The notes beneath the pieces are model-generated. The model was not told where the DNA came from, did not search any database, and worked only from the letters and a program-made list of their open reading frames with translations. From NCBI RefSeq assembly GCF_012927085.1, contig NZ_JABBFX010000001.1, positions 3,348,001 to 3,412,000 on the forward strand: a stretch of DNA of 64,000 nucleotides, given 5' to 3'. This DNA is from Ramlibacter agri (GTDB taxonomy: Bacteria; Pseudomonadota; Gammaproteobacteria; Burkholderiales; Burkholderiaceae_C). A program made the position numbers and the translations under genes. Of the stretch, positions 54,987 to 64,000 are shown in pieces. Each line of letters opens with the position of its first letter. The stretch's first letter is position 1.

Positions 54987-55013
54987 TCCAATGCGCATAG
55001 CATGCGCATTGGA
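54987..55013. promoter_or_regulatory. Operator-like 27-bp palindrome upstream of ccdA
   Basis: TCCAATGCGCAT (54987-54998) and ATGCGCATTGGA (55002-55013) form a perfect 12-base inverted repeat with a 3-base centre. Its right end overlaps the GGAGGA ribosome site of ccdA. This is the expected place and shape for the autoregulatory site of a CcdAB complex. Confidence 0.7.
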
Positions 55014-55023
55014 GGATTCCGTC

Positions 55024-55266
55024 ATGCCTTCGCAAACTGATCGTAAACGTGCCGTCAACCTGACCTTGAGCGAGGGCTTGGTGGAACAGGCCCGCGGCTA
55101 TACGGACAACCTGTCCGCAACGGTTGAAGAACTGCTCACCGGCTACGTCGCTTCGCAAGACGATGCCCGGCAGGGCCGGCGCGAAATGGCCGACGCGTGC
55201 GCCGCGGACTGGAACGCCGTGCATGAAGCCATAGGTTCCTTCGCCGACGAGCACTCCACGCTCTGA
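55024..55266 (+). CDS. ccdA: CcdA-type antitoxin
   Basis: 80 residues. The N-terminal part MPSQTDRKRAVNLTLSEGLVEQARGYTDNLSATVEELL is the ribbon-helix-helix DNA-binding region. The C-terminal acidic tail (ACAADWNAVHEAIGSFADEHSTL) matches the CcdB-wrapping segment of CcdA, including the conserved W/N and F-x-D-x-x-x pattern. It is overlapped by the toxin start (the final A of its TGA is the A of the toxin ATG). It neutralises CcdB and, with it, represses its own promoter. Confidence 0.9.
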   Translation: MPSQTDRKRAVNLTLSEGLVEQARGYTDNLSATVEELLTGYVASQDDARQGRREMADACAADWNAVHEAIGSFADEHSTL

Positions 55267-55595
55267 TGGCGCAATTCGACGTCCACCAGAACAAGGGGGC
55301 GTTGCGGGAAGCGATCCCTTTCGTGGTGGTCGTGCAGTCGTCCCAGTTCGACCGCTACCGGCGCCGCGTGGTTGTTCCCCTGGTGCGAAGCAAGATGGTG
55401 CCTGCCGGCGGGACCGATCTGCGGTCGCGAATGAACCCGGTGTTCCGGGTGAAGAACATCGAGGTCGTATTGCATCCGCTCGATGTCGTTTCCGTGGCGG
55501 TCGACCAGCTTGGGCCCAAGGTGGCCTCGTTGGCCGAGCACGGCCAGACGATCACCGATGCTCTCGACGAGTTGCTGACCAGGACCCGGGGATAG
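55266..55595 (+). CDS. ccdB: CcdB-type gyrase-poison toxin
   Basis: 109 residues. MAQFDVHQNKGALREAIPFVVVVQSSQFDRYRRRVVVPLVR follows the CcdB pattern (Q.DV..N......PY.VDVQSDLLD...TRVVVPL). The C-terminal region, where gyrase contact residues lie (W-G-I in F-plasmid CcdB), reads TDALDELLTRTRG; the terminal Trp-Gly-Ile is not present, so target or potency may differ. It is coupled to ccdA by a one-base overlap. Chromosomal location suggests a stabilising or stress role, not plasmid maintenance. Confidence 0.88.
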   Translation: MAQFDVHQNKGALREAIPFVVVVQSSQFDRYRRRVVVPLVRSKMVPAGGTDLRSRMNPVFRVKNIEVVLHPLDVVSVAVDQLGPKVASLAEHGQTITDALDELLTRTRG

Positions 55596-55615
55596 GCGCG
55601 GGCCGCGCCTCGGAC

Positions 55616-56653
55616 TCAGGCAGCGAGACGGAGGCGCCTGCCTTTGACTCGGCCGAACAGGTCCTTGGGGTCCGGCAACTCGGGAACGAGGTCAAGCGTC
55701 TCACCGACACCCAGCGCCTCGGCGGCATCGCGCAGGTAGCGCAGCGCCGAGAAGTCTTCCAGAGCGAAGCCCACCGAGTCGAACACGGTGATCTCCGAAT
55801 CGAGTTGGCGGCCAGGACGGGCGCCCGCCAGCACCTGCCAAACCTCTGTCACGGGAAAATCGCGCGGCATCTGCTGGATGTCGCCTTCCGCCCGCGTCTG
55901 CGGCTCGTATTCGACGAACACCGAAGCAACCTCCAGCACACCCGGGTGCAGTTCGGTCTTCCCCGGGCAATCGCCACCCACCGCGTTGACGTGCATGCCG
56001 CGCTCCAGCATCTGCGGCGTGAGGATGGTCGCATTCGTCTTGTCGGCGGTGACCGTGGTCACGATGTTCGCGCCTCGCACTGCCTCGGCGATGCTGGCGC
56101 AGCGCACCAGCCGCAAGCCCGTGCCCTGCAGGTTGCGCACCAGCTTGTCTGTGGCCAACGGATCGACGTCGTACAGGCGAAGCTCCTCGATCCCCAGCAG
56201 ATGCTGGAACCCCAGCGCCTGGAACTCGCTCTGTGCGCCATTGCCGATCAAGGCCATCACCTTGCTGCCAGGACGCGCCAGCACCTGCGCAGCCACGGCC
56301 GACATCGCCGCGGTACGCAGCGCGGTCGTCAAGGTCAGCTCGCTCAGGAGGCGCGGCATGCCGGTCGCCACATCCGCCAGCACGCCGAAGGCCATCACGG
56401 TCGGCAAGGCCTGCAGGTGGTTCCGCGGATGCCCGTTGACGTACTTGAAGCTGTAGCTCTGCGCATCGGACACCGGCATCAGCTCGATCACGCCCAGCCC
56501 GGAATGCGCCGCCAGCCGGGCGCTCTTGTCGAAGGACTCCCAGCGCAGGAAGTCGGCCCGGATGTTGCCGGCGATGCCCGCGATGCAGGCCGCCACGCCG
56601 CGCTCGCGGACGATGGCCGCGACGTCGGCGACGCTCAGGAACAGGGTACGCAT
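55616..56653 (-). CDS. Ornithine cyclodeaminase/mu-crystallin family enzyme
   Basis: 345 residues. The family start is MRTLFLSVADVAAIVRERGVAACIAGI. YKYVNGHP-like FKYVNGHPRNHLQALPTV is the substrate region, VMALIGNGAQSEFQALGFQHLLG is the NAD-binding Rossmann site and VNAVGGDCPGKTELHPGVL follows. It is close in length and motifs to bacterial ornithine cyclodeaminase (ornithine to proline plus ammonia). The related lysine/alanine-type enzymes cannot be excluded. It is divergent from an Lrp/AsnC regulator 114 bases away, which probably controls it in response to an amino acid. Confidence 0.88.
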   Translation of the reverse strand: MRTLFLSVADVAAIVRERGVAACIAGIAGNIRADFLRWESFDKSARLAAHSGLGVIELMPVSDAQSYSFKYVNGHPRNHLQALPTVMAFGVLADVATGMPRLLSELTLTTALRTAAMSAVAAQVLARPGSKVMALIGNGAQSEFQALGFQHLLGIEELRLYDVDPLATDKLVRNLQGTGLRLVRCASIAEAVRGANIVTTVTADKTNATILTPQMLERGMHVNAVGGDCPGKTELHPGVLEVASVFVEYEPQTRAEGDIQQMPRDFPVTEVWQVLAGARPGRQLDSEITVFDSVGFALEDFSALRYLRDAAEALGVGETLDLVPELPDPKDLFGRVKGRRLRLAA

Positions 56654-56767
56654 GTTCGTCTCCCAATGACTGGGAACAGTCTCGCCCGGGCGCGTGCCAA
56701 TGAAAATCGGCAAGAATGCAGCGAAACACCCGCCTTCCTGCCATTCCGGCAGGGGCGACCTGGCGAA

Positions 56768-57193
56768 ATGGCAATGGACGAAGTCGACCAGCAGCTCATC
56801 GCGCTCCTGCGGCAGGACGCGCGCATGAGCGTCGCCGATCTCGCGCACAAGCTCGGCGTGTCGCGCGGCACCGTCACCAACCGCATCCGCAAGCTGGAAG
56901 ACTCGCAGGTGATCGTCGGCTACACGGTGAAGCTGCGGCCGGAAGCCGAGCCGGACCGCATCCGCGCCTGGATGGGCGTGATGGTGGAAGGCAACCAGAC
57001 GCGGCAGGTCATCGCCAGCCTCCTCGGGGAGCCGGGCGTCGCGGCGCTGCACGACACCAACGGGCGCTGGGACCTGCTGGCGGAGCTGGAGGCGCGCTCG
57101 ATGGGCGAGCTGTCAGAGGTGCTGGAGCGGATCCGGCTGATCAGCGGGATCCGGAGCACGGAGACCAACATCCACCTGGCGACGTATCGCTAG
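56768..57193 (+). CDS. Lrp/AsnC-family transcriptional regulator
   Basis: 141 residues from MAMDEVDQQLIALLRQDARMSVADLAHKLGVSRGTVTNRIRKLEDSQVIVGYTV, the standard helix-turn-helix. It is followed by the RAM effector domain (GEPGVAALHDTNGRWDLLAELEARS). An ATG six bases downstream is equally possible. It is divergent from the ornithine cyclodeaminase-family gene. The gap contains TCCCA-N5-TGGGA and CCTGCC-N5-GGCAGG dyads (the second at 56737-56753) that could be its sites. Likely activates amino-acid breakdown when its effector is abundant. Confidence 0.92.
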   Translation: MAMDEVDQQLIALLRQDARMSVADLAHKLGVSRGTVTNRIRKLEDSQVIVGYTVKLRPEAEPDRIRAWMGVMVEGNQTRQVIASLLGEPGVAALHDTNGRWDLLAELEARSMGELSEVLERIRLISGIRSTETNIHLATYR

Positions 57194-57200
57194 GGCAGCA

Positions 57201-57226
57201 TGGATCCCGGCTTGCGCCGGGATGAC
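57201..57226. repeat. REP-like palindromic repeat, copy 2
   Basis: ATCCCGGC (57204-57211) / GCCGGGAT (57216-57223), loop TTGC, inside TGGATCCCGG...GGGATGAC. It is the same family as the inverted copy at 41243-41269. It lies between two convergent stops (Lrp and the membrane protein) and may also end transcription. Confidence 0.65.
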
Positions 57227-57229
57227 AAC

Positions 57230-58474
57230 TTACATCAGCAATCCCGCCAGCTTCTTCACCAGATCCTCCATGGGCATGATGGTGAGCGCCAGCGGCGCGA
57301 TGGGCAGGAAGAGGGCGCCGGCCAGCTGCACGATGGCATCGCGCGTGATCGGGGTGAAGCGCATTTCCTTCACCACCTGGTAGCTGTTGCCCAGGTCGGC
57401 CAGCGACTGGATGTCGCCGCTGCCGATGAGGGGCTCGTCCGCCGGCGCCGCGCCGTGCACCCACTTGCGGTCGAACTCGCGCACGTAGCGTTCCGCCAGC
57501 GCGCCGTATTCGCGCAGGCCCGCCCGCTTGGCTTCGGCCAGCTGCGGCATGAACACCAGCAGCGGCCCGAACACCAGCAGGGCCAGGAAGGCGGCCATCA
57601 AACCGAGTTCCAGCTTGAAGTCCAGCAGCTGCGCGCCGGCGAAGAAGATGCGGTTGGCCAGCTGCGCCGACACGATCGCGCCGTGCGCCAGCGCCAGCAC
57701 GGCGAAGGCATAGACGGTGTTGCTCAGGAAGCCCAGCCCGCCCACGCGGTCCGGGTGCGTGGGCACCAGCGCCAGCCGGATGCGCGAGACCTGCCACAGG
57801 AAGCGGGCCCAGATGAACATCCGGAAGTACCAGCGCAGCAGCAGGAACTGGAACATCGGCACGCTGAGGTAGCCGTACCAGACGCCGGCCGGGGTCAGGA
57901 CGCTGCCGCCGGGGACGACCGTGCCGTACCACGAAGTGGTGTTCAGCACGCCGTACTGGCGCCAGACCACCAGCACGCCGAAGCCATAGACGAATGCGAT
58001 CAGCAGCACCTCCGCCAGCACCGAGTTGCGCAGGGCGAAGGCGCTGTGCACCGCTTGCTGGAACCGCTCGCGGCAGTCGTCCGGCACCAGGCGGCGGTCG
58101 AGGAAGGTGCGCGCGATGCGCCGCAGGCGCTGGTGCACCACCAGTTCCGCCAGGATCAGCAAGGGCAGGGCCACCAGGAAGCGGATTTGCACCTCCAGGT
58201 CGTAGACGAAGGGCACCGGCACGCTCCCGGGCAGCAGCCGCCCTTCGAACACCGACAGCACCAGCAGCGGCAGCCAGGCGATCGCGGCGATCGTGACGAT
58301 GCGCTTGCGCAGCATGTGCAAGGTATCGTCGCTCAGGCGCGCGCGCAGCAGCAGCTGGTACAGCGGGCCGCCGAGGACGAGCGAGAAATTGTTCGTTTCC
58401 TCGCCGATGTCTTCGCCCGCGAGCAGCGGGTGCGGCGGCATTTCGTCCGGGTCCAGGGCCTGGCTTTCGTTCAT
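57230..58474 (-). CDS. Multi-pass membrane protein of unknown function (414 aa)
   Basis: 414 residues from MNESQALDPDEMPPHPLLAGEDIGEETNNFSLVLGGPLYQLLLRARL. Six to seven hydrophobic segments are visible, among them VTIAAIAWLPLLVLSVFEG, FLVALPLLILAELVV, VLLIAFVYGFGVLVVW and LMAAFLALLVFGPLLVFMPQL. A cytoplasmic stretch carries AKRAGLREYGALAERYVREFDRKWVHG. No transporter, sensor or enzyme motif is evident to me. The C-terminus ends in another hydrophobic helix. Its start has a modest ribosome site and the gene is divergent from a DedA-type gene. Confidence 0.8.
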   Translation of the reverse strand: MNESQALDPDEMPPHPLLAGEDIGEETNNFSLVLGGPLYQLLLRARLSDDTLHMLRKRIVTIAAIAWLPLLVLSVFEGRLLPGSVPVPFVYDLEVQIRFLVALPLLILAELVVHQRLRRIARTFLDRRLVPDDCRERFQQAVHSAFALRNSVLAEVLLIAFVYGFGVLVVWRQYGVLNTTSWYGTVVPGGSVLTPAGVWYGYLSVPMFQFLLLRWYFRMFIWARFLWQVSRIRLALVPTHPDRVGGLGFLSNTVYAFAVLALAHGAIVSAQLANRIFFAGAQLLDFKLELGLMAAFLALLVFGPLLVFMPQLAEAKRAGLREYGALAERYVREFDRKWVHGAAPADEPLIGSGDIQSLADLGNSYQVVKEMRFTPITRDAIVQLAGALFLPIAPLALTIMPMEDLVKKLAGLLM

Positions 58475-58540
58475 CGGCTGGAACTCCTTTTCCAACCATC
58501 CATGTTGTCTACCCGGCCGTTGGTGTACAACTAGGGCAAG

Positions 58541-59170
58541 GTGTTGTTCGAACTGTTCCTCGGCTTCTTCTACGGCCTGGACCCGGCGTCCATGGCCGCG
58601 TGCGTGTTCCTGGTGCTGTTCGGCGCCGGCATGGGCCTGCCCCTGAGCCAGGACCTGATGCTGCTGGCGGCGGCGCCCCTGACGCTCATGGGCGTGCTGC
58701 CTCCGTTGAAGCTGGTGGCGCTGGCCTGGGTGGCCTTGCTGGCGGGCGACGCCGTGACCTTCTGGACCGGCCGCTATTTCGGGGCGCGCTGGATCCGCCT
58801 GCCGTGGGCGCAGCGCGGCGTGCCGCCGGCGGCCCTGCAACGGCTGGAGGAGGGCACGCGCCGGCGGGGGCCGCTACTGGCCTTCTTGGCGCGCTTCCTG
58901 CCCGGGCAGCGCGCCACGCTGTATTTCGCCTATGGGACCCTGCACATGCCCTGGCGGCAGTTCCTGGCCTTCGATGCGCTGGCCGCGGCCATCCACGTGC
59001 CGCTGCTGGTGTACGGCGTGCGCCTGCTGCACTGGCGCTGGGAAGCCTGGCAGGCGCCACTGGACCACATCGACGATGCGCTCACCTTGGCGCTGATCGC
59101 GCTGGTGTTCTTCTGGTACCGGCGGCAGAAGCGGCTCAGCCCGCCAGCATCCGCAGCAGCGTCTCGTTGA
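58541..59170 (+). CDS. DedA/VTT-domain membrane protein
   Basis: 209 residues from a GTG start with AGGGCAAG upstream. It has five or six membrane segments. The VTT (SNARE-associated) core is visible in LAGDAVTFWTGRYFGARWI and FLARFLPGQRATLYFAYG, the equivalent of the conserved R..PG.R.......G motif of DedA proteins. DedA proteins act in membrane lipid (undecaprenyl phosphate or phospholipid) translocation. The C-terminus is a short basic tail. Its last 35 bases overlap the 3' end of a convergent hydrolase gene. Confidence 0.85.
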   Translation: MLFELFLGFFYGLDPASMAACVFLVLFGAGMGLPLSQDLMLLAAAPLTLMGVLPPLKLVALAWVALLAGDAVTFWTGRYFGARWIRLPWAQRGVPPAALQRLEEGTRRRGPLLAFLARFLPGQRATLYFAYGTLHMPWRQFLAFDALAAAIHVPLLVYGVRLLHWRWEAWQAPLDHIDDALTLALIALVFFWYRRQKRLSPPASAAASR

Positions 59171-59984
59171 ACACCTGCGGCGCCTCGTACTGCACCCAGT
59201 GCCCGGCGTCCTTCACCATCAGCACCTTGCGCACGCCAGCGGCGTGCAGCGCTTCCTTCAGTTCCGTCAGCTTGCCGGTGTAGAGCACATCCTGCTCGCC
59301 GTAGATCGCCTGCACGGGGACGGTGATCCGGGTCAATGCGCGGGCCAGGGCGTCGGTCATCGCCAGCCGCCGGCGCGGCATGCGGTCGTGCGGCACGTTG
59401 GCGGCCTGCAGTTCCACGGCCAGTTCGTCGACCGCTGATTCGCGCCACAGCATCAGCGTCTTCAGGTTGCTGCGGTGGGCGGCCAGCTGCGCTGTGCGGT
59501 CTTCCAGGTGGCGCCAGGCCGTCAGCGCCACGCGGCGGTCGCGCAGGCCCAGGCCGGGTGCGCCCACCACGATCAGGCGTCGCACGAGCTCCGGATGCCC
59601 CGCCGTCAGCAAGCCGGCGGTGAGGCCGCCGAAGGAGAAGCCGACCAGGTCCACCGGGGCTTCGCCCACCAGGAGCGGCAGGCCCTGGGCGAGCGCTTCC
59701 GCCGCGCCATCGGCGTCCTTGTTGCCGGCCGGCAGGTCCGAGTCGCCCATGCCGGGCAGGTCCGGGACCAGCACGCGGCGGCCCGCCGCGGCGAGCGCCT
59801 CGACGTTGCGGATCCAGTGCGTCCAGCTGCCGCTGCCGCCGTGGAACAGCACCAGCGGCTGGCCTTCGCCCCAGGCATGCCACGTGATTTCGCCGTCGCC
59901 GCAGGGCGTCGTGTGGCAGGTGGCGTGGGAGAGGACGCGGAGGGCTTCGGGCGGGAGGGACGACGCGAGGGACTGCTGGGACAT
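59136..59984 (-). CDS. Alpha/beta hydrolase
   Basis: 282 residues, no signal peptide. LVLFHGGSGSWTHWIRNVEAL provides the oxyanion region and the nucleophile elbow is LVGFSFGGLTAG (Ser). Catalytic acid and base are in AIYGEQDVLY and VKDAGHWVQYEAP. The layout matches esterases and meta-cleavage C-C hydrolases. It overlaps the convergent VTT gene by 35 bases and precedes no obvious partner gene. It might be a general carboxylesterase. Confidence 0.85.
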   Translation of the reverse strand: MSQQSLASSLPPEALRVLSHATCHTTPCGDGEITWHAWGEGQPLVLFHGGSGSWTHWIRNVEALAAAGRRVLVPDLPGMGDSDLPAGNKDADGAAEALAQGLPLLVGEAPVDLVGFSFGGLTAGLLTAGHPELVRRLIVVGAPGLGLRDRRVALTAWRHLEDRTAQLAAHRSNLKTLMLWRESAVDELAVELQAANVPHDRMPRRRLAMTDALARALTRITVPVQAIYGEQDVLYTGKLTELKEALHAAGVRKVLMVKDAGHWVQYEAPQVFNETLLRMLAG

Positions 59985-60006
59985 CCTTCGATTGTCGCCG
60001 CGGCGC

Positions 60007-60636
60007 TCACCAGCGCGCCGGCAGGGGCTTCAGCAGGACGATGCGCTGGTCCTTCTTGGCGACGTAGCCGCCTGTCTCCAGGTCCTTCATCAGGCGGCTC
60101 ACCATCTCGCGCGAGCAGGCCAGGTGGCCGGCGATCTGCTTGTGCGTCATCGGCTCGGGGATGGTGCGGATGCCTTCGGCATCGGGTTCGCCCGCCAGTT
60201 GCTCCAGCAGGCGCTTGGCCCGCCCGTAGACGTCGATCAGTGCCAGGCTGCGCGTGCTTTCGGTGGCCAGGCGGGCGCGGCGGATCAGGCGGCCCATCAT
60301 CTCCAGCGCGAAACCCGGTTCCTCGGCGATGTAGGCCAGCAGCGTTTCGCGCGTGATCACCGCGCAGCTGGTGGCCTCCATCGTCTCCACGTTGGCGGAG
60401 CGCGGGCCGCCGTCCAGCGACATCTCGCCCACGTATTCGCCTGGGCCGTAGATGCCCAGGGTCACTTCCTTGCCCTGCGTGTCGGCAGCGAAGGCGCGCA
60501 GCCGGCCGCTGCGCACGATGTACAGCGTGCTGCCGATGTCGCCTTCCTGGATGAGAAGCAGGCCGCGCCGATAGCTCCGCAGCGTGCCGCGTGCGGCCAG
60601 CGCCTCCGTGTGGGTGGGGGCGCCGCCGCTCGTCAA
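60007..60636 (-). CDS. Crp/Fnr-family transcriptional regulator
   Basis: About 209 residues. The cyclic-nucleotide-binding beta roll spans residues about 15-125 (LLLIQEGDIGSTLYIVRSGRLRAF, GEYVGEMSLDGGPRSANVETMEATSCAVI). The C-terminal HTH is MTHKQIAGHLACSREMVSRLMKDLE. Glu and Arg of the CRP phosphate-binding cassette (GEMSLDGGPRSA) are present, so cAMP or a related ligand may bind; no Fnr cysteines are seen. No ATG is available: TTG 60636 overlaps the stop of the upstream LuxR-type gene (TTGA) and is the best start, implying coupled translation. Confidence 0.85.
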   Translation of the reverse strand: MTSGGAPTHTEALAARGTLRSYRRGLLLIQEGDIGSTLYIVRSGRLRAFAADTQGKEVTLGIYGPGEYVGEMSLDGGPRSANVETMEATSCAVITRETLLAYIAEEPGFALEMMGRLIRRARLATESTRSLALIDVYGRAKRLLEQLAGEPDAEGIRTIPEPMTHKQIAGHLACSREMVSRLMKDLETGGYVAKKDQRIVLLKPLPARW

Positions 60637-61310
60637 AGCAGGGCGTGCGCGCCCATGGGCGCGGCAAGGTGGAGGCTGACGGGCACGACGGGGGGCAGGG
60701 CGGCCACCCGCTGCACCAGCAGCCGGATGCTGTTGATGCCGGTCTTCAGGCGCAGCGCCCGCACCTGGGTGCGCACGGTGCACAGCGACACGCCGTGGGC
60801 GCTGGCGATGTCCTGCACGTCCAGGCCTTCGCACAGGCCGCGCAGCACGGCCTCTTCCTTCGGCGTCAGGCCGTGGGTGCGCGAGAAGAAGCCGAGGTTC
60901 AGGTTCTGCGTGCCGTGCTGGCGCGCCAGCATCAGCAGCACCGGGCCGCCGGCGCCTTCGTAGGCCTCGAACAGCGGCACGCAAGCCGCGGGCAGGGGGT
61001 CGCCCTCGCCGCGCAGCATCAGCATCTGGCGCCGGCCCTGGGCGGCGGCGCCCACCGCGCGGCGGAACTCGTCGGCCTGCAGGGGCGTGTGGCTGGCCAC
61101 CCGGCCGCCCGCCACGTGGAGAAAGCGCGCCCGCGACAGCTCGTGCCGCGCCAGGTGGTTGGCGTGCCGCAAGGTGCAATCGGCATCGACCAGGATCAGG
61201 CCGTAGTCGATCTCTTCCAGCGCACGCCAGGCGAGATCCACCTCCGTGGCGACGGGGCGCAGCCGGGCGGCGGAAGGAGCCGGGGAGAAGACGATGGTCT
61301 GGGCTTGCAT
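60633..61310 (-). CDS. LuxR-type HTH regulator with PAS-like sensor region
   Basis: 225 residues from MQAQTIVFSPAPSAARLRP with AAGGAG before the ATG. Residues about 25-70 (AWRALEEIDYGLILVDADCTLRHANHLARHEL) look like a PAS-type sensor. The C-terminal 60 residues are a LuxR/GerE HTH (LTPKEEAVLRGLCEGLDVQDIASAHGVSLCTVRTQVRALRLKTGI). No receiver domain is present. It is divergent from the hydrolase-caspase gene 173 bases away and coupled to a Crp-type gene. The two regulators are likely to control that locus or themselves. Confidence 0.85.
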   Translation of the reverse strand: MQAQTIVFSPAPSAARLRPVATEVDLAWRALEEIDYGLILVDADCTLRHANHLARHELSRARFLHVAGGRVASHTPLQADEFRRAVGAAAQGRRQMLMLRGEGDPLPAACVPLFEAYEGAGGPVLLMLARQHGTQNLNLGFFSRTHGLTPKEEAVLRGLCEGLDVQDIASAHGVSLCTVRTQVRALRLKTGINSIRLLVQRVAALPPVVPVSLHLAAPMGAHALL

Positions 61311-61333
61311 GCTGTGCTCCTTCTCATTGTGGT

Positions 61334-61357
61334 GCAACAAGTCTAAAAATTTGTTGC
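61334..61357. promoter_or_regulatory. Inverted repeat between LuxR-Crp pair and caspase gene
   Basis: Perfect GCAACAA (61334-61340) / TTGTTGC (61351-61357) with a 10-base AT-rich spacer, 24 bases upstream of the LuxR start. The divergent gap also holds the hairpin CCATCC-TGA-GGATGG (61408-61422) in the caspase leader. The first dyad is a good candidate operator for one of the two regulators. Confidence 0.5.
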
Positions 61358-61483
61358 CCGAAGCAAATACGGCCCGTACCCCGTGGCGTGTGATCCATTC
61401 ACCTCCTCCATCCTGAGGATGGTTCGTGTCAGCCGTATTTCCTATCTTGCGGTCCAACCGGGCCATCCCGGCAGGGGGAAGGG

Positions 61484-63298
61484 ATGCGAATCCTTGCGAT
61501 CCACGGCGTCGGCCACGGCGACGCCAAGACCGACTGGCCGCCGCAATGGCAGCAGGCCGTCCTGTCCGGGCTGCAGACCTGGCGGCCGGACCTGGACGTG
61601 CCGGCCATCGAGTTCCTGCACTACGACAGCTTCTTCGAGCAGGCCCCGCTGGGCGCGCCCGAGGTCGCCGAGGCGCTGTTCCGCCTGTCCGCGAGCGGGC
61701 TGTTCCACGGCCTGACGGACATGATGCGTTCGCGCGGCGGGCTGGGCACGGCCCTCGACGCCGTGCGCTGGACGGCCGGCATGGTCGCGCAGTGGGTGGC
61801 GCTGGACGACCTGCGCGAGCAGCTGCGCAAGCACCTGGCCGCCGCCATCCAGCAGCAGCAGCCGGACGTGATCCTGGCCCACAGCCTGGGCTCGCTGCTG
61901 GCTTACGACACGCTGCGGCGCGACGAAGCGGCCGGCGGCACGCTGGCCAAGGACCTCACCTTCGTCACCTTCGGCTCGCAGATCGGCAACCCGGCGGTGC
62001 GTTCGGTGTTCGGCGGGCGCATCGAGCCGCTGGCCAGCTGCCGCTTCTGGTGGCACCTGTTCAACCCCGAGGACGACGTCTTCACCTGCCCGCTCGGGCT
62101 GCCGGCGCGGGCCCGCTTCCGCCAGGTGACGACCTTCTTCGACATCCCCGGCATGGCCGACCACGACGGCGCCCATTACCTGGGGCACGAGCAGACCACG
62201 CTGACGGTCTGGCAGGACCTCGCGGCCAGCGCGCGCGGCAGCAAGCGCGCGGCGCCGGCGCAGCCGGCCAACCTGGCCGTGGCGCATCGCGCCGCCGTGC
62301 AGCCCAAGCCGGTGGAGCTGAAGCAGAAGGCGGTGCTGGTGGGCGTGGCCGACTACGCCGACCCGGCCAACAAGCTCGATGGGCCGGTGAACGACGTCTT
62401 CGCCGTCAGCGCCGCATTGCAGGAACTGGGCTTCCCGCCCGACGGCATCCGGGTGGTGCTGAACGATCGCGCCACCGCCGAAGGCATCCGCGAGCGCCTC
62501 AAGTGGCTGCTGCAGGAGGCGCAGGAGGGCGACCAGCTGTTCTTCTTCTTCGCCGGCCACGGCGCGCAGGTGCCGGGCTATGGCCGCGATTCGGAAGTCG
62601 ACCGGCTCGACGAATGCCTGGTGCCCTACGACTTCGACTGGACCCGCGGCCAGGGCATCAGCGACGACGAACTGGCCGCGCTCTATGGCCAGCTGCCCTA
62701 CAAATGCCAGTTCACCATCATGCTGGACTGCTGCCATGCGGGCGGGATGACGCGCGGCGGCCTGAAGGCGCGCGGGCTGGCGCCGCCGGACGACATCCGC
62801 CATCGCATGCTGCGCTGGGACCGGACCAGCCAGATGTGGCTGCCGCGCGAGCAACTGGCCAGCCCTACGGCGGCCGAGGAGAAGAAGGTGGCCCGGGCGG
62901 CGGACCGCGCATCGTGGCTGGGCGAAAGCGGCAGCGTGCGTCGCATCGGCCGCGGCACCAGCCTGTGGGCGCCGAGCGCGCGTGCCTACGGCGCGGCGAA
63001 GACGGCCAACCGGCACGCGGGCCCTTACGTGCCGATGATGCTGGAGGCCTGCGGCGAGAACCAGCTGGCCTACGAGTACCGGCATGGCGTCACCGCCTTC
63101 GGCGCCTTTACCTACAGCCTGGTCAGCGTGCTGCACCAGGTGGCGCGCGAGCAGAAGAAGCCGCGCCTGAGCTTCGAGCAGCTGATCGCGCGCACCGGCA
63201 AGCGCATCGCCACCGTCGTGCCCGAGCCGCAGCAACCGCAACTGCACTGCGCCTCCGCGCGCCGCAAGGACCTGATCCCCGGTTTATCCCCGCTCTAG
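61484..63298 (+). CDS. Alpha/beta-hydrolase and caspase-like (C14) protease fusion protein
   Basis: 604 residues, no signal peptide. Residues 1-~265 are an alpha/beta-hydrolase-like domain opening MRILAIHGVGHGDAK with a serine elbow VILAHSLGSLLAYD (Ser134), an Asp region (NPEDDVF) and a later His (DIPGMADHDG). After an Ala/Pro linker, residues about 285-600 are a caspase/metacaspase domain (QKAVLVGVADYADPANKLDGPVNDV). Its catalytic dyad is His359 (FFFAGHGAQVPG) and Cys417 (IMLDCCHAGG). A loop of about 100 residues after the Cys contains basic stretches that could be processing sites. The neighbour downstream is a zinc protease gene. Confidence 0.9.
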   Translation: MRILAIHGVGHGDAKTDWPPQWQQAVLSGLQTWRPDLDVPAIEFLHYDSFFEQAPLGAPEVAEALFRLSASGLFHGLTDMMRSRGGLGTALDAVRWTAGMVAQWVALDDLREQLRKHLAAAIQQQQPDVILAHSLGSLLAYDTLRRDEAAGGTLAKDLTFVTFGSQIGNPAVRSVFGGRIEPLASCRFWWHLFNPEDDVFTCPLGLPARARFRQVTTFFDIPGMADHDGAHYLGHEQTTLTVWQDLAASARGSKRAAPAQPANLAVAHRAAVQPKPVELKQKAVLVGVADYADPANKLDGPVNDVFAVSAALQELGFPPDGIRVVLNDRATAEGIRERLKWLLQEAQEGDQLFFFFAGHGAQVPGYGRDSEVDRLDECLVPYDFDWTRGQGISDDELAALYGQLPYKCQFTIMLDCCHAGGMTRGGLKARGLAPPDDIRHRMLRWDRTSQMWLPREQLASPTAAEEKKVARAADRASWLGESGSVRRIGRGTSLWAPSARAYGAAKTANRHAGPYVPMMLEACGENQLAYEYRHGVTAFGAFTYSLVSVLHQVAREQKKPRLSFEQLIARTGKRIATVVPEPQQPQLHCASARRKDLIPGLSPL

Positions 63299-63307
63299 GA
63301 GAGCACC

Positions 63308-64000
63308 ATGGCCCGCAAGAAGACAGCTGCCGAAACCGGCGCGTACCTGGCCCAGGCAGCCCGCAAGCACCGCTTCTGCGCGGTGGAATATCCCAAGGGC
63401 ATGCAGCCCGGCGGCGCGCCCATCAAGGACGAACGAACGCGCCTCCTGCGCGAGACCCAATACAAGTGGCTCAATGGGACGAAGCTGCGCTACTGGTTCT
63501 TCCCGAAACCCAAGGCCTGGGCCGGCAGCGACGCCGACCGCAACGTGGTGCGCCAGGCCTTCGCCGCCTGGAAGGCGCTGGGCATCGGTCTGGACTTCGA
63601 GGAGGTGCAGGCCAGGGAACAGGCCGACGTGCGCATCGCCTTCCTCGATGGCGATGGTTCCTGGTCCTACATCGGCACCGACGTCCTTACCAAGCGCGAC
63701 GACCCGCGCACCATGAACTTCGGCTGGAGCCTCACCGAGGACCTGGCCGAGGGCATGGACACCGCGCTGCACGAGATCGGCCACACGCTGGGCTTCCCGC
63801 ACGAGCACCAGAACCCCTTTGCCGGCATCGTCTGGAACGAGGCCGCCGTCTACAAGACGCTGGGGGCGCCGCCCAACAACTGGAGCAAGGCGACCACCCG
63901 GCACAACATCATCGACAAGCTGCAGGCCGACAAGGTGCAGGGCTCGTCCTGGGACCCGAACTCGGTGATGCACTATCCCTTCGAGGCGGGGCTGATCGTG
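63308..64000 (+). CDS. Astacin-like zinc metalloprotease (runs off right edge)
   Basis: The first 231 residues of a frame open to the window edge, from ATG 63308 with AGGAG upstream. The zinc site is HEIGHTLGFPHEHQN: His155, His159 and His165 with catalytic Glu156, the astacin-type HExxHxxGxxHE. The Met-turn is SVMHYPF (Met221), and a Tyr follows as in M12A proteases. Upstream is the core strand/helix region (LRYWFFPKPKAW, VRQAFAAWKALGIGLDFEEV, GDGSWSYIGTD). No signal peptide is visible at the N-terminus (MARKKTAAETGAYLAQAARKH), so export, if any, is not by Sec. It lies 9 bases after the caspase-fusion gene, implying a shared transcript. Confidence 0.88.
   Translation, partial: MARKKTAAETGAYLAQAARKHRFCAVEYPKGMQPGGAPIKDERTRLLRETQYKWLNGTKLRYWFFPKPKAWAGSDADRNVVRQAFAAWKALGIGLDFEEVQAREQADVRIAFLDGDGSWSYIGTDVLTKRDDPRTMNFGWSLTEDLAEGMDTALHEIGHTLGFPHEHQNPFAGIVWNEAAVYKTLGAPPNNWSKATTRHNIIDKLQADKVQGSSWDPNSVMHYPFEAGLIV

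Follow-up and report, generated by a model that had tools for sequence, protein, structure and literature searches.

A predicted alpha/beta-hydrolase joined to a caspase-like protease in Ramlibacter agri, with a closely spaced metzincin gene downstream

Caspase-like proteases and alpha/beta-hydrolases have been associated before in bacteria as the products of neighbouring genes. In the accessible part of a survey by Kaur et al. (2020, PMC7159879) that treats NTPase conflict systems, every VMAP with a caspase domain is stated to have a neighbouring alpha/beta-hydrolase gene, and joint action of the two was suggested. A caspase likewise accompanies a hydrolytic enzyme in the canu antiphage loci, where, in the available portions of their report (PMC12799240), the caspase activates a gated pro-nuclease under a model in which a protease unlocks a pro-enzyme. 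Compared by description from the same portions, canu differs in its partner enzyme, a metallo-beta-lactamase-type nuclease with a gene of its own, and in the Ig-like fold of its caspase. Bacterial metacaspases or orthocaspases (Asplund-Samuelsson et al. 2012, PMC3501461; structures 4afr and 6w8s) share a C14 domain and a His-Cys dyad with the protein described here, and the fusions named in the available text of that survey involve Lipase_GDSL and Amidase_2, not the present hydrolase.

The window analysed here is a 64,000-nucleotide stretch of Ramlibacter agri DNA that contains a single gene for both activities as predicted. The closest known thing to this fusion is the pairing recorded as neighbouring genes in VMAP-MoxR-vWA ternary and other NTPase conflict systems, in which, as far as the accessible text goes (PMC7159879), a hydrolase has a caspase partner, and to which the present hydrolase family is linked by one plasmid locus (L056, below). 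The preliminary description knew of no system with this pairing; that needs amending for the pairing as such, which the seen part of PMC7159879 records as adjacent genes, and still holds for the single-polypeptide fusion, of which we found no report in the open-access literature. What is new is that both parts lie in one polypeptide, that no related NTPase is encoded nearby, and that a closely spaced metzincin gene is co-inherited in part of the family. VMAP systems, by contrast, comprise two genes plus an NTPase system in the text available, whereas no similar NTPase lies in 15 neighbourhoods of the fusion (eight STAND, VMAP, MoxR and vWA proteins, used as tblastn queries at 1e-3, had no match in 16 locus records, 15 of them distinct) and a metzincin lies in seven of the 15. 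The accessible part of Kaur et al. (2020) does not mention a metzincin partner.

The fusion gene and its two predicted halves

61484..63298, + strand: predicted alpha/beta-hydrolase-caspase fusion gene of Ramlibacter agri, 604 aa (ORF translation without internal stop, Pfam, family alignment)
61470..61483, + strand: purine-rich stretch resembling a ribosome site, immediately 5' of the ATG (by eye)
61484..62212, + strand: N-terminal hydrolase half, residues 1-243 (family and stand-alone alignments, profile-profile comparison)
61721..61747, + strand: basic-rich loop, residues 80-88, candidate cut site (K/R count in the family)
61883..61885, + strand: Ser134 codon, predicted nucleophile in AHSLGS (alignment)
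62072..62074, + strand: Asp197 codon, predicted catalytic acid (family and stand-alone alignments)
62162..62164, + strand: His227 codon, predicted catalytic histidine (family and stand-alone alignments)
62213..62326, + strand: linker, residues 244-281, lowest conservation (family alignment)
62327..62803, + strand: caspase p20-like region, residues 282-440 (Pfam, family alignment, MCA2 alignment)
62558..62560, + strand: His359 codon, caspase dyad (alignment)
62732..62734, + strand: Cys417 codon, caspase dyad (family alignment, MCA2 alignment)
62804..63298, + strand: basic loop (456-479) and p10-like C-terminal part, residues 441-604, stop codon included (Pfam, family alignment)

The GC content of the gene by codon position (1/2/3 = 0.72/0.48/0.94) follows the pattern that genuine genes should show in high-GC DNA; length is little proof of a gene here, because 26 stop-to-stop frames of at least 600 aa lie within the window. 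No Rfam family scored above threshold within 55000-64000 of the window, and PADLOC called the gene with a generic caspase model and nothing more specific. The protein is presumably cytoplasmic, as no signal peptide was seen by eye. It is almost certain that it consists of a hydrolase half followed by a caspase half. The preliminary description had read it in this way, and the reading is borne out by a C14 domain at the C-terminal end and a predicted Ser-Asp-His triad at the N-terminal end, both conserved in the family; Ser134, His359 and Cys417 were all found at the positions it had named.

The caspase half is the more readily recognized. Peptidase_C14 (PF00656) matches residues 281-595 at 100.7 bits, well over its cut-off of 21.4 (E=1.3e-28), and among solved structures in the PDB the nearest in sequence are those of metacaspases (best E=1.3e-17; 4afr and 6w8s are among those named). 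His359 and Cys417 align with MCA2, and the Cys417 column holds Ala or Gly in both MCA2 chains compared, which we take to be deliberate active-site mutants. The acidic residues Asp304 and Asp415 sit at metacaspase-like positions that presumably have a role in Arg/Lys cleavage or in calcium dependence. Known metacaspases cut after Arg or Lys.

Assignment of the N-terminal half to the alpha/beta-hydrolases is a prediction from triad order, the nucleophile motif and sub-threshold Pfam matches. An HMM search of this half, as the preliminary description had proposed, returned hydrolase families below threshold (Thioesterase, E=0.0076; Ser_hydrolase, E=0.33) and no Pfam family over its cut-off. Abhydrolase_6 appears below threshold in six of the 14 members of alignment A2 (best E=0.00067), a hand-picked set of fused N-halves comprising 14 of 19 taken from the 35 rows of alignment A1, itself 35 of 120 listed proteins. 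The same family was matched in two of six stand-alone relatives scanned (E=2e-4 and 3.3e-4, both under cut-off). When the N-terminal half of the window's protein was aligned with five stand-alone relatives (22-31% identity), the Ser134, Asp197 and His227 columns were invariant; the invariant columns of the stand-alone set include the nucleophile motif, an Asp and a His, which correspond to these three. In profile-profile comparison with a sure Abhydrolase_6 family, the fused halves gave no match (0.7%) and the stand-alone relatives a weak one (24% over 50 columns around the elbow). The A2 profile found no hydrolase in the PDB. The stand-alone profile gave nine weak matches there (E up to 1; best E=0.041, not significant), among whose names are four lipases or phospholipases and one serine hydrolase; these names are suggestive only.

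Scoring of 8000 candidates yielded 1170 relatives of the whole protein, and the best 120 of 1170, window protein included, were aligned. Ser134, His227, His359 and Cys417 are kept in 120/120 of these and Asp197 in 119/120, so that 119 of these proteins have the full set of five; in P0045, the one that does not, alignment A1 is aberrant around Asp197. The fusion is thus a conserved family rather than a chance join or an assembly effect. Across the same best 120, mean conservation is highest in the p20 part (0.76), followed by the N-terminal half (0.64), the remainder of the protein (0.55) and the linker (0.42). Six members of 711-780 aa (P0084, P0091, P0098, P0102, P0105 and P0120) carry an N-terminal extension of about 100-190 aa that is helical by eye, and those of P0091 and P0102 had no Pfam match.

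The family is patchily distributed. A contig of Ramlibacter paludis (L002) encodes a relative that is 83% identical. Carriers at the thresholds used, own genome included, number five of 60 genus genomes (one copy in two pieces), at least six of 250 family genomes, and at least six of 349 order genomes (in one of which the match is divided between two contigs, while another matches only over positions 173-591). The own genome is the sole carrier found in the class set (at least 1/369), and at least nine of 398 phylum genomes have a match, with both halves matched in the own genome and G462 only, among the matches listed. At most 3 to 5 candidates were scored per genome in the family, order, class and phylum searches, and the true numbers there may be higher. 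Among plasmids, none was covered to 80% or more, 202 records matching and the best 40 of 202 doing so from residue 271 onward, and one phage record matched, in the caspase part only. Two fusion copies match in two pieces (G646, L036:7131-8938; G462, L024:7917-9651), pointing to frameshifts or assembly errors.

Stand-alone hydrolases and their caspase neighbours

A search of plasmids with the N-terminal half alone gave 14 weak matches (E=6e-6 to 0.1). At 11 of these 14 loci (L051-L058, L060, L062 and L063) the gene adjoining the hydrolase has a caspase-type motif, GHG followed by D-x-C; because L053/L060 and L055/L062 are near-duplicates (99.5% and 98.9% of aligned bases), this corresponds to nine of 12 distinct cases. 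The motif is absent from the adjoining gene in L059, L061 and L064. Across the 14 loci, 12 of 137 called genes have the motif, 11 of them adjacent to the hydrolase, as compared with one of 57 called genes in four control stretches, that one being itself caspase-like. The count depends on the pattern (7/14 loci with a strict form, 11/14 with a looser one), and the looser form was applied to the called genes of the 14 loci and the controls after a trial on six selected proteins. The strict pattern also matched a second, unexplained frame in L051, and L061 has an opposite-strand gene that may encode what we take to be a CHAT-like protein.

Nine of the caspase-motif partners were scanned for domains. 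C14 is over cut-off in L051, L054 and L058, just under it in L056 (21.0 against 21.4 bits), and not among the matches at 1e-3 for L052, L053, L055 and L063; this tally covers eight of the nine, L057, with 25 of 42 families listed, standing outside it. WD40 repeats occur in six of the nine (L052, L053, L055, L057, L058 and L063), five of which also have AAA/NACHT-type matches, and the sixth, L057, is annotated as an AAA ATPase. In the L056 set the hydrolase is accompanied by a caspase with VMAP-M2, by a MoxR-like AAA protein and by one that carries both EAD2 and VMAP-M0; this set is the single example, by context, of a VMAP-type link for the fused family. On the Streptomyces plasmids of L052, L053 and L060, the pair of hydrolase and caspase-motif NTPase has a type I-E cas gene and a gene for an HD-domain protein as neighbours.

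An alignment of stand-alone hydrolases (A6) matched the fused halves over 235 columns in profile-profile comparison (99.6%, E=4.8e-24). A6 was built without the window sequence from nine of the 14 plasmid relatives, picked by hand: L060 and L062 were dropped as near-duplicates, and L059, L061 and L064 for want of a caspase-motif neighbour, so that A6 is in effect chosen by that neighbour. Against an unrelated metzincin profile as control, the fused halves gave 1.3% and a set including the N-terminal half of the window's protein 0.5%. Given the profile match and the corresponding triad columns, the fused N-terminal halves and the plasmid stand-alone hydrolases are, as judged from sequence, one family. 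Closer stand-alone versions were also sought, and 10 were inspected among the best 120 of 158. At least five of them (P0149, P0157, P0180, P0186 and P0230) read on into the beginning of a caspase domain before they end or depart from it, which gives them the look of broken or truncated fusions, and they were rejected as true stand-alones; P0130, P0206 and others may be genuine.

In several plasmid relatives the caspase motif and an NTPase thus share one protein, and either partner could act downstream of the other. It is therefore worth considering that the hydrolase half serves as a sensor, whose turnover or ligand binding switches on a caspase that cuts cellular proteins as the executioner. 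The sequence leaves the order of dependence either way, yet a near-invariant triad suits an enzyme with an output of its own, and the protease is the activator in the protease pairs described in the available parts of PMC12799240. We regard this order of events as unlikely.

The downstream metzincin and other neighbouring genes

63308..64000, + strand: metzincin (AbsR1/SCO6992-like) gene, 9 bases past the fusion stop and truncated where the window ends; the whole gene, for a product of 366 aa, lies at G000:C1:3411308-3412408

The spacing suggests that the fusion and the metzincin are co-transcribed. The metzincin matches PF00413 (E=4.5e-9) and PF01400 (E=2e-8). It resembles AbsR1/SCO6992 of Streptomyces coelicolor (PMC9705864) in its zinc-binding motif and in a full-length match to NCBIfam NF050131 (E=1.3e-111), but at 373.1 bits it falls under the cut-off of 650 and is not that equivalog; no caspase partner is named for SCO6992 in the portion of that paper available. 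According to the same portion, SCO6992 appears to bind zinc and has beta-glucuronidase activity and no protease activity, and protease activity should accordingly not be assumed for the metzincin here.

The metzincin gene adjoins the fusion in G000 (the own genome), G649, G676, G663 and G974, with gaps of 6-38 bases. G646 has a metzincin fragment beside its broken fusion copy, and in G952 the metzincin lies on the strand of the fusion with four genes in between. Altogether, it is present at seven of 15 distinct fused loci in neighbourhoods of several kilobases, and was not found in the fetched stretch of the other eight (six by tblastn, two among the called genes listed). When fusions and metzincins were presumed to be of one genome if their longest contigs agreed in length, a metzincin was obtained for 15 of the 58 fusion proteins nearest to the window's (itself counted), against none of 62 others; the zero is biased, because the metzincins were the best 120 of 5218 most like the window's and partners of distant fusions could not appear. 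Chance pairing would give a mean of about 1 (maximum 6 in 2000 trials). Pairwise distances within the 15 presumed pairs correlate at r=0.894, a value reached in none of 5000 permutations, which shows joint inheritance of the two genes and not interaction. All 120 of these metzincins have the three zinc histidines. Cys24 is found in every one of the 114 with a residue aligned at that column (14 of the 15 presumed partners, 100 of 105 others, among the best 120 of 5218), and a possible cysteine switch would consequently belong to metzincins at large rather than to the pairing.

Next to the operon in the window are a gene for a TctC receptor and genes for CRP-like and LuxR-like regulators, and no defence genes. 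The CRP-like (cNMP_binding, HTH_Crp) and LuxR-type regulator genes are divergent (60007-61310, - strand). G649 and G646 have relatives of both close to the fusion, and G676 has one of the LuxR-type regulator; they may control the fusion/metzincin pair or reflect plain synteny. Perhaps the fusion is instead a non-suicidal enzyme of stress or lipid homeostasis whose protease half merely turns the protein over. Its chromosomal location among non-defence genes would suit such a role, and metacaspases have housekeeping functions. Most examined stand-alone relatives, in contrast, adjoin caspase-motif genes, often for NTPase/WD40 proteins, and presence in at least six of 250 family and five of 60 genus genomes is unlike that of a housekeeping gene, so that a role in homeostasis seems improbable to us.

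Several other carriers differ in what lies beside the fusion. In one (G236, L022:6786-10076), a single ORF joins a phospholipase-C-type phosphoesterase (PF04185, E=9.7e-68) to the hydrolase half and the caspase, and in G974 a patatin-like gene (28.0 bits against a cut-off of 27.7) lies two genes upstream of the fusion. A second caspase gene lies near the fusion in G462, and a separate caspase-like protein with an export signal by eye is encoded on the fusion's contig in G974 (L049:9218-10732). The third gene in R. paludis and G676 encodes a GH46 protein with a peptidoglycan-binding domain (domains scanned in R. paludis), a piece of which is present in G646. The G952 neighbours include a C70-like peptidase, Hcp, a metzincin and an amidase (Amidase_2). 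In that genome (L044, L048) the fusion sits in a long same-strand cluster with very large Pfam-less proteins, DUF6603, a sub-threshold DyP-like match and an alpha-amylase, and the genome has no TssC match. Neighbours other than GH46 were not seen to be common to the loci and may be local.

Some of these neighbours raise the idea that the fusion, metzincin, chitosanase-like protein and amidase are exported together against rivals or prey, delivered by a contractile injection machine or by some other route that bypasses Sec. In keeping with this, GH46, Amidase_2, C70-like and Hcp proteins are encoded beside the fusion in some carriers, no signal peptide is evident by eye at the starts of the fusion, metzincin, GH46 or amidase proteins, and a phage-sheath family is over cut-off in four of 16 carriers, own genome included. 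Yet TssC (VipB) is found neither in the own genome nor in 11 carriers outside the genus, occurs in two of five genus carriers as against 10 of 54 non-carriers, and the best sheath matches in the four sheath-positive genomes are either on a different contig from the fusion or some 566 kb from it. We therefore consider joint export quite doubtful. The sheath match in the own genome (G000:C2:1159272-1159742) could belong to a prophage or an injection machine. Type VI secretion cargo, a candidate prompted by the Hcp, amidase, GH46 and C70-like neighbours, was rejected as unsupported in the own genome, where TssC is absent.

A possible protease-gated hydrolase

Our working proposal, held tentatively and at somewhat less than even confidence, is that the fusion is a self-contained protease-gated hydrolase. 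Under this proposal, some trigger would switch on the caspase half, which would have the Arg/Lys specificity of metacaspases and would cut the protein's own basic-rich segments (loop 80-88, linker 244-281 and loop 456-479). Cleavage would free or open the hydrolase half, which might then attack a lipid or other ester and thereby arrest or kill the cell. That control runs from the caspase half to the hydrolase, and not in the opposite direction or not at all, we judge to be just short of an even prospect, and we give a self-harm or defence outcome much the same, nearly balanced standing.

Among the best 120 of 1170 relatives, the K/R fraction is 0.244 in the linker and 0.240 in loop 456-479, compared with 0.124 in whole proteins. 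In loop 80-88 it is 0.301 against 0.096 for the N-terminal half, with K/R present in 119/120. These counts ignore relatedness of the family members, and the enrichment, which fits the need of metacaspases for basic sites, is weak evidence, since many soluble proteins would be expected to have basic residues in their flexible loops. Opening of the hydrolase by caspase cleavage would have its published analogue in canu. Also in favour of the proposal are the five catalytic residues kept together in 119 of the best 120 relatives, the caspase-motif neighbours at 11 of 14 plasmid loci, the profile match to the stand-alone hydrolases, the phospholipase-C-type fusion partner in one carrier and the patatin-like gene near another, and alpha/beta-hydrolase effectors are described as acting on membrane lipids in the accessible text of Kaur et al. 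(2021, PMC8195603). Weighing against it are the lack of NTPase relatives beside the fused genes, the non-defence neighbours in the window, the metzincin missing at eight of 15 loci, the lack of a significant PDB match for the stand-alone profile, the failure of the fused halves to match a sure Abhydrolase_6 family by profile, the generic-only PADLOC call, and the absence of protease activity in the metzincin's closest characterised relative.

The metzincin might be a second zymogen of the cascade, its zinc perhaps blocked by the conserved N-terminal Cys24. In its fullest form, the arrangement would be an NTPase-free death cascade of two genes, in which the caspase, carrying its own pro-lipase in one protein, also activates a pro-metzincin by removal of Cys24. 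This is decidedly speculative and, in our estimation, improbable, but if true, a trigger, a protease and two executioners would be packed into two genes.

In bacterial immunity, the unlocking of another enzyme by a caspase has recently become a theme. The fusion looks like a compact one-protein version of the separate hydrolase and caspase genes found in presumed cell-death or defence systems of some other bacteria. The analysis also singles out a family of hydrolases that went unrecognised by Pfam models at their cut-offs in the sequences scanned. The caspase-accompanying hydrolase of NTPase conflict systems has been a prediction from gene neighbourhoods, and a small natural fusion makes that prediction testable.
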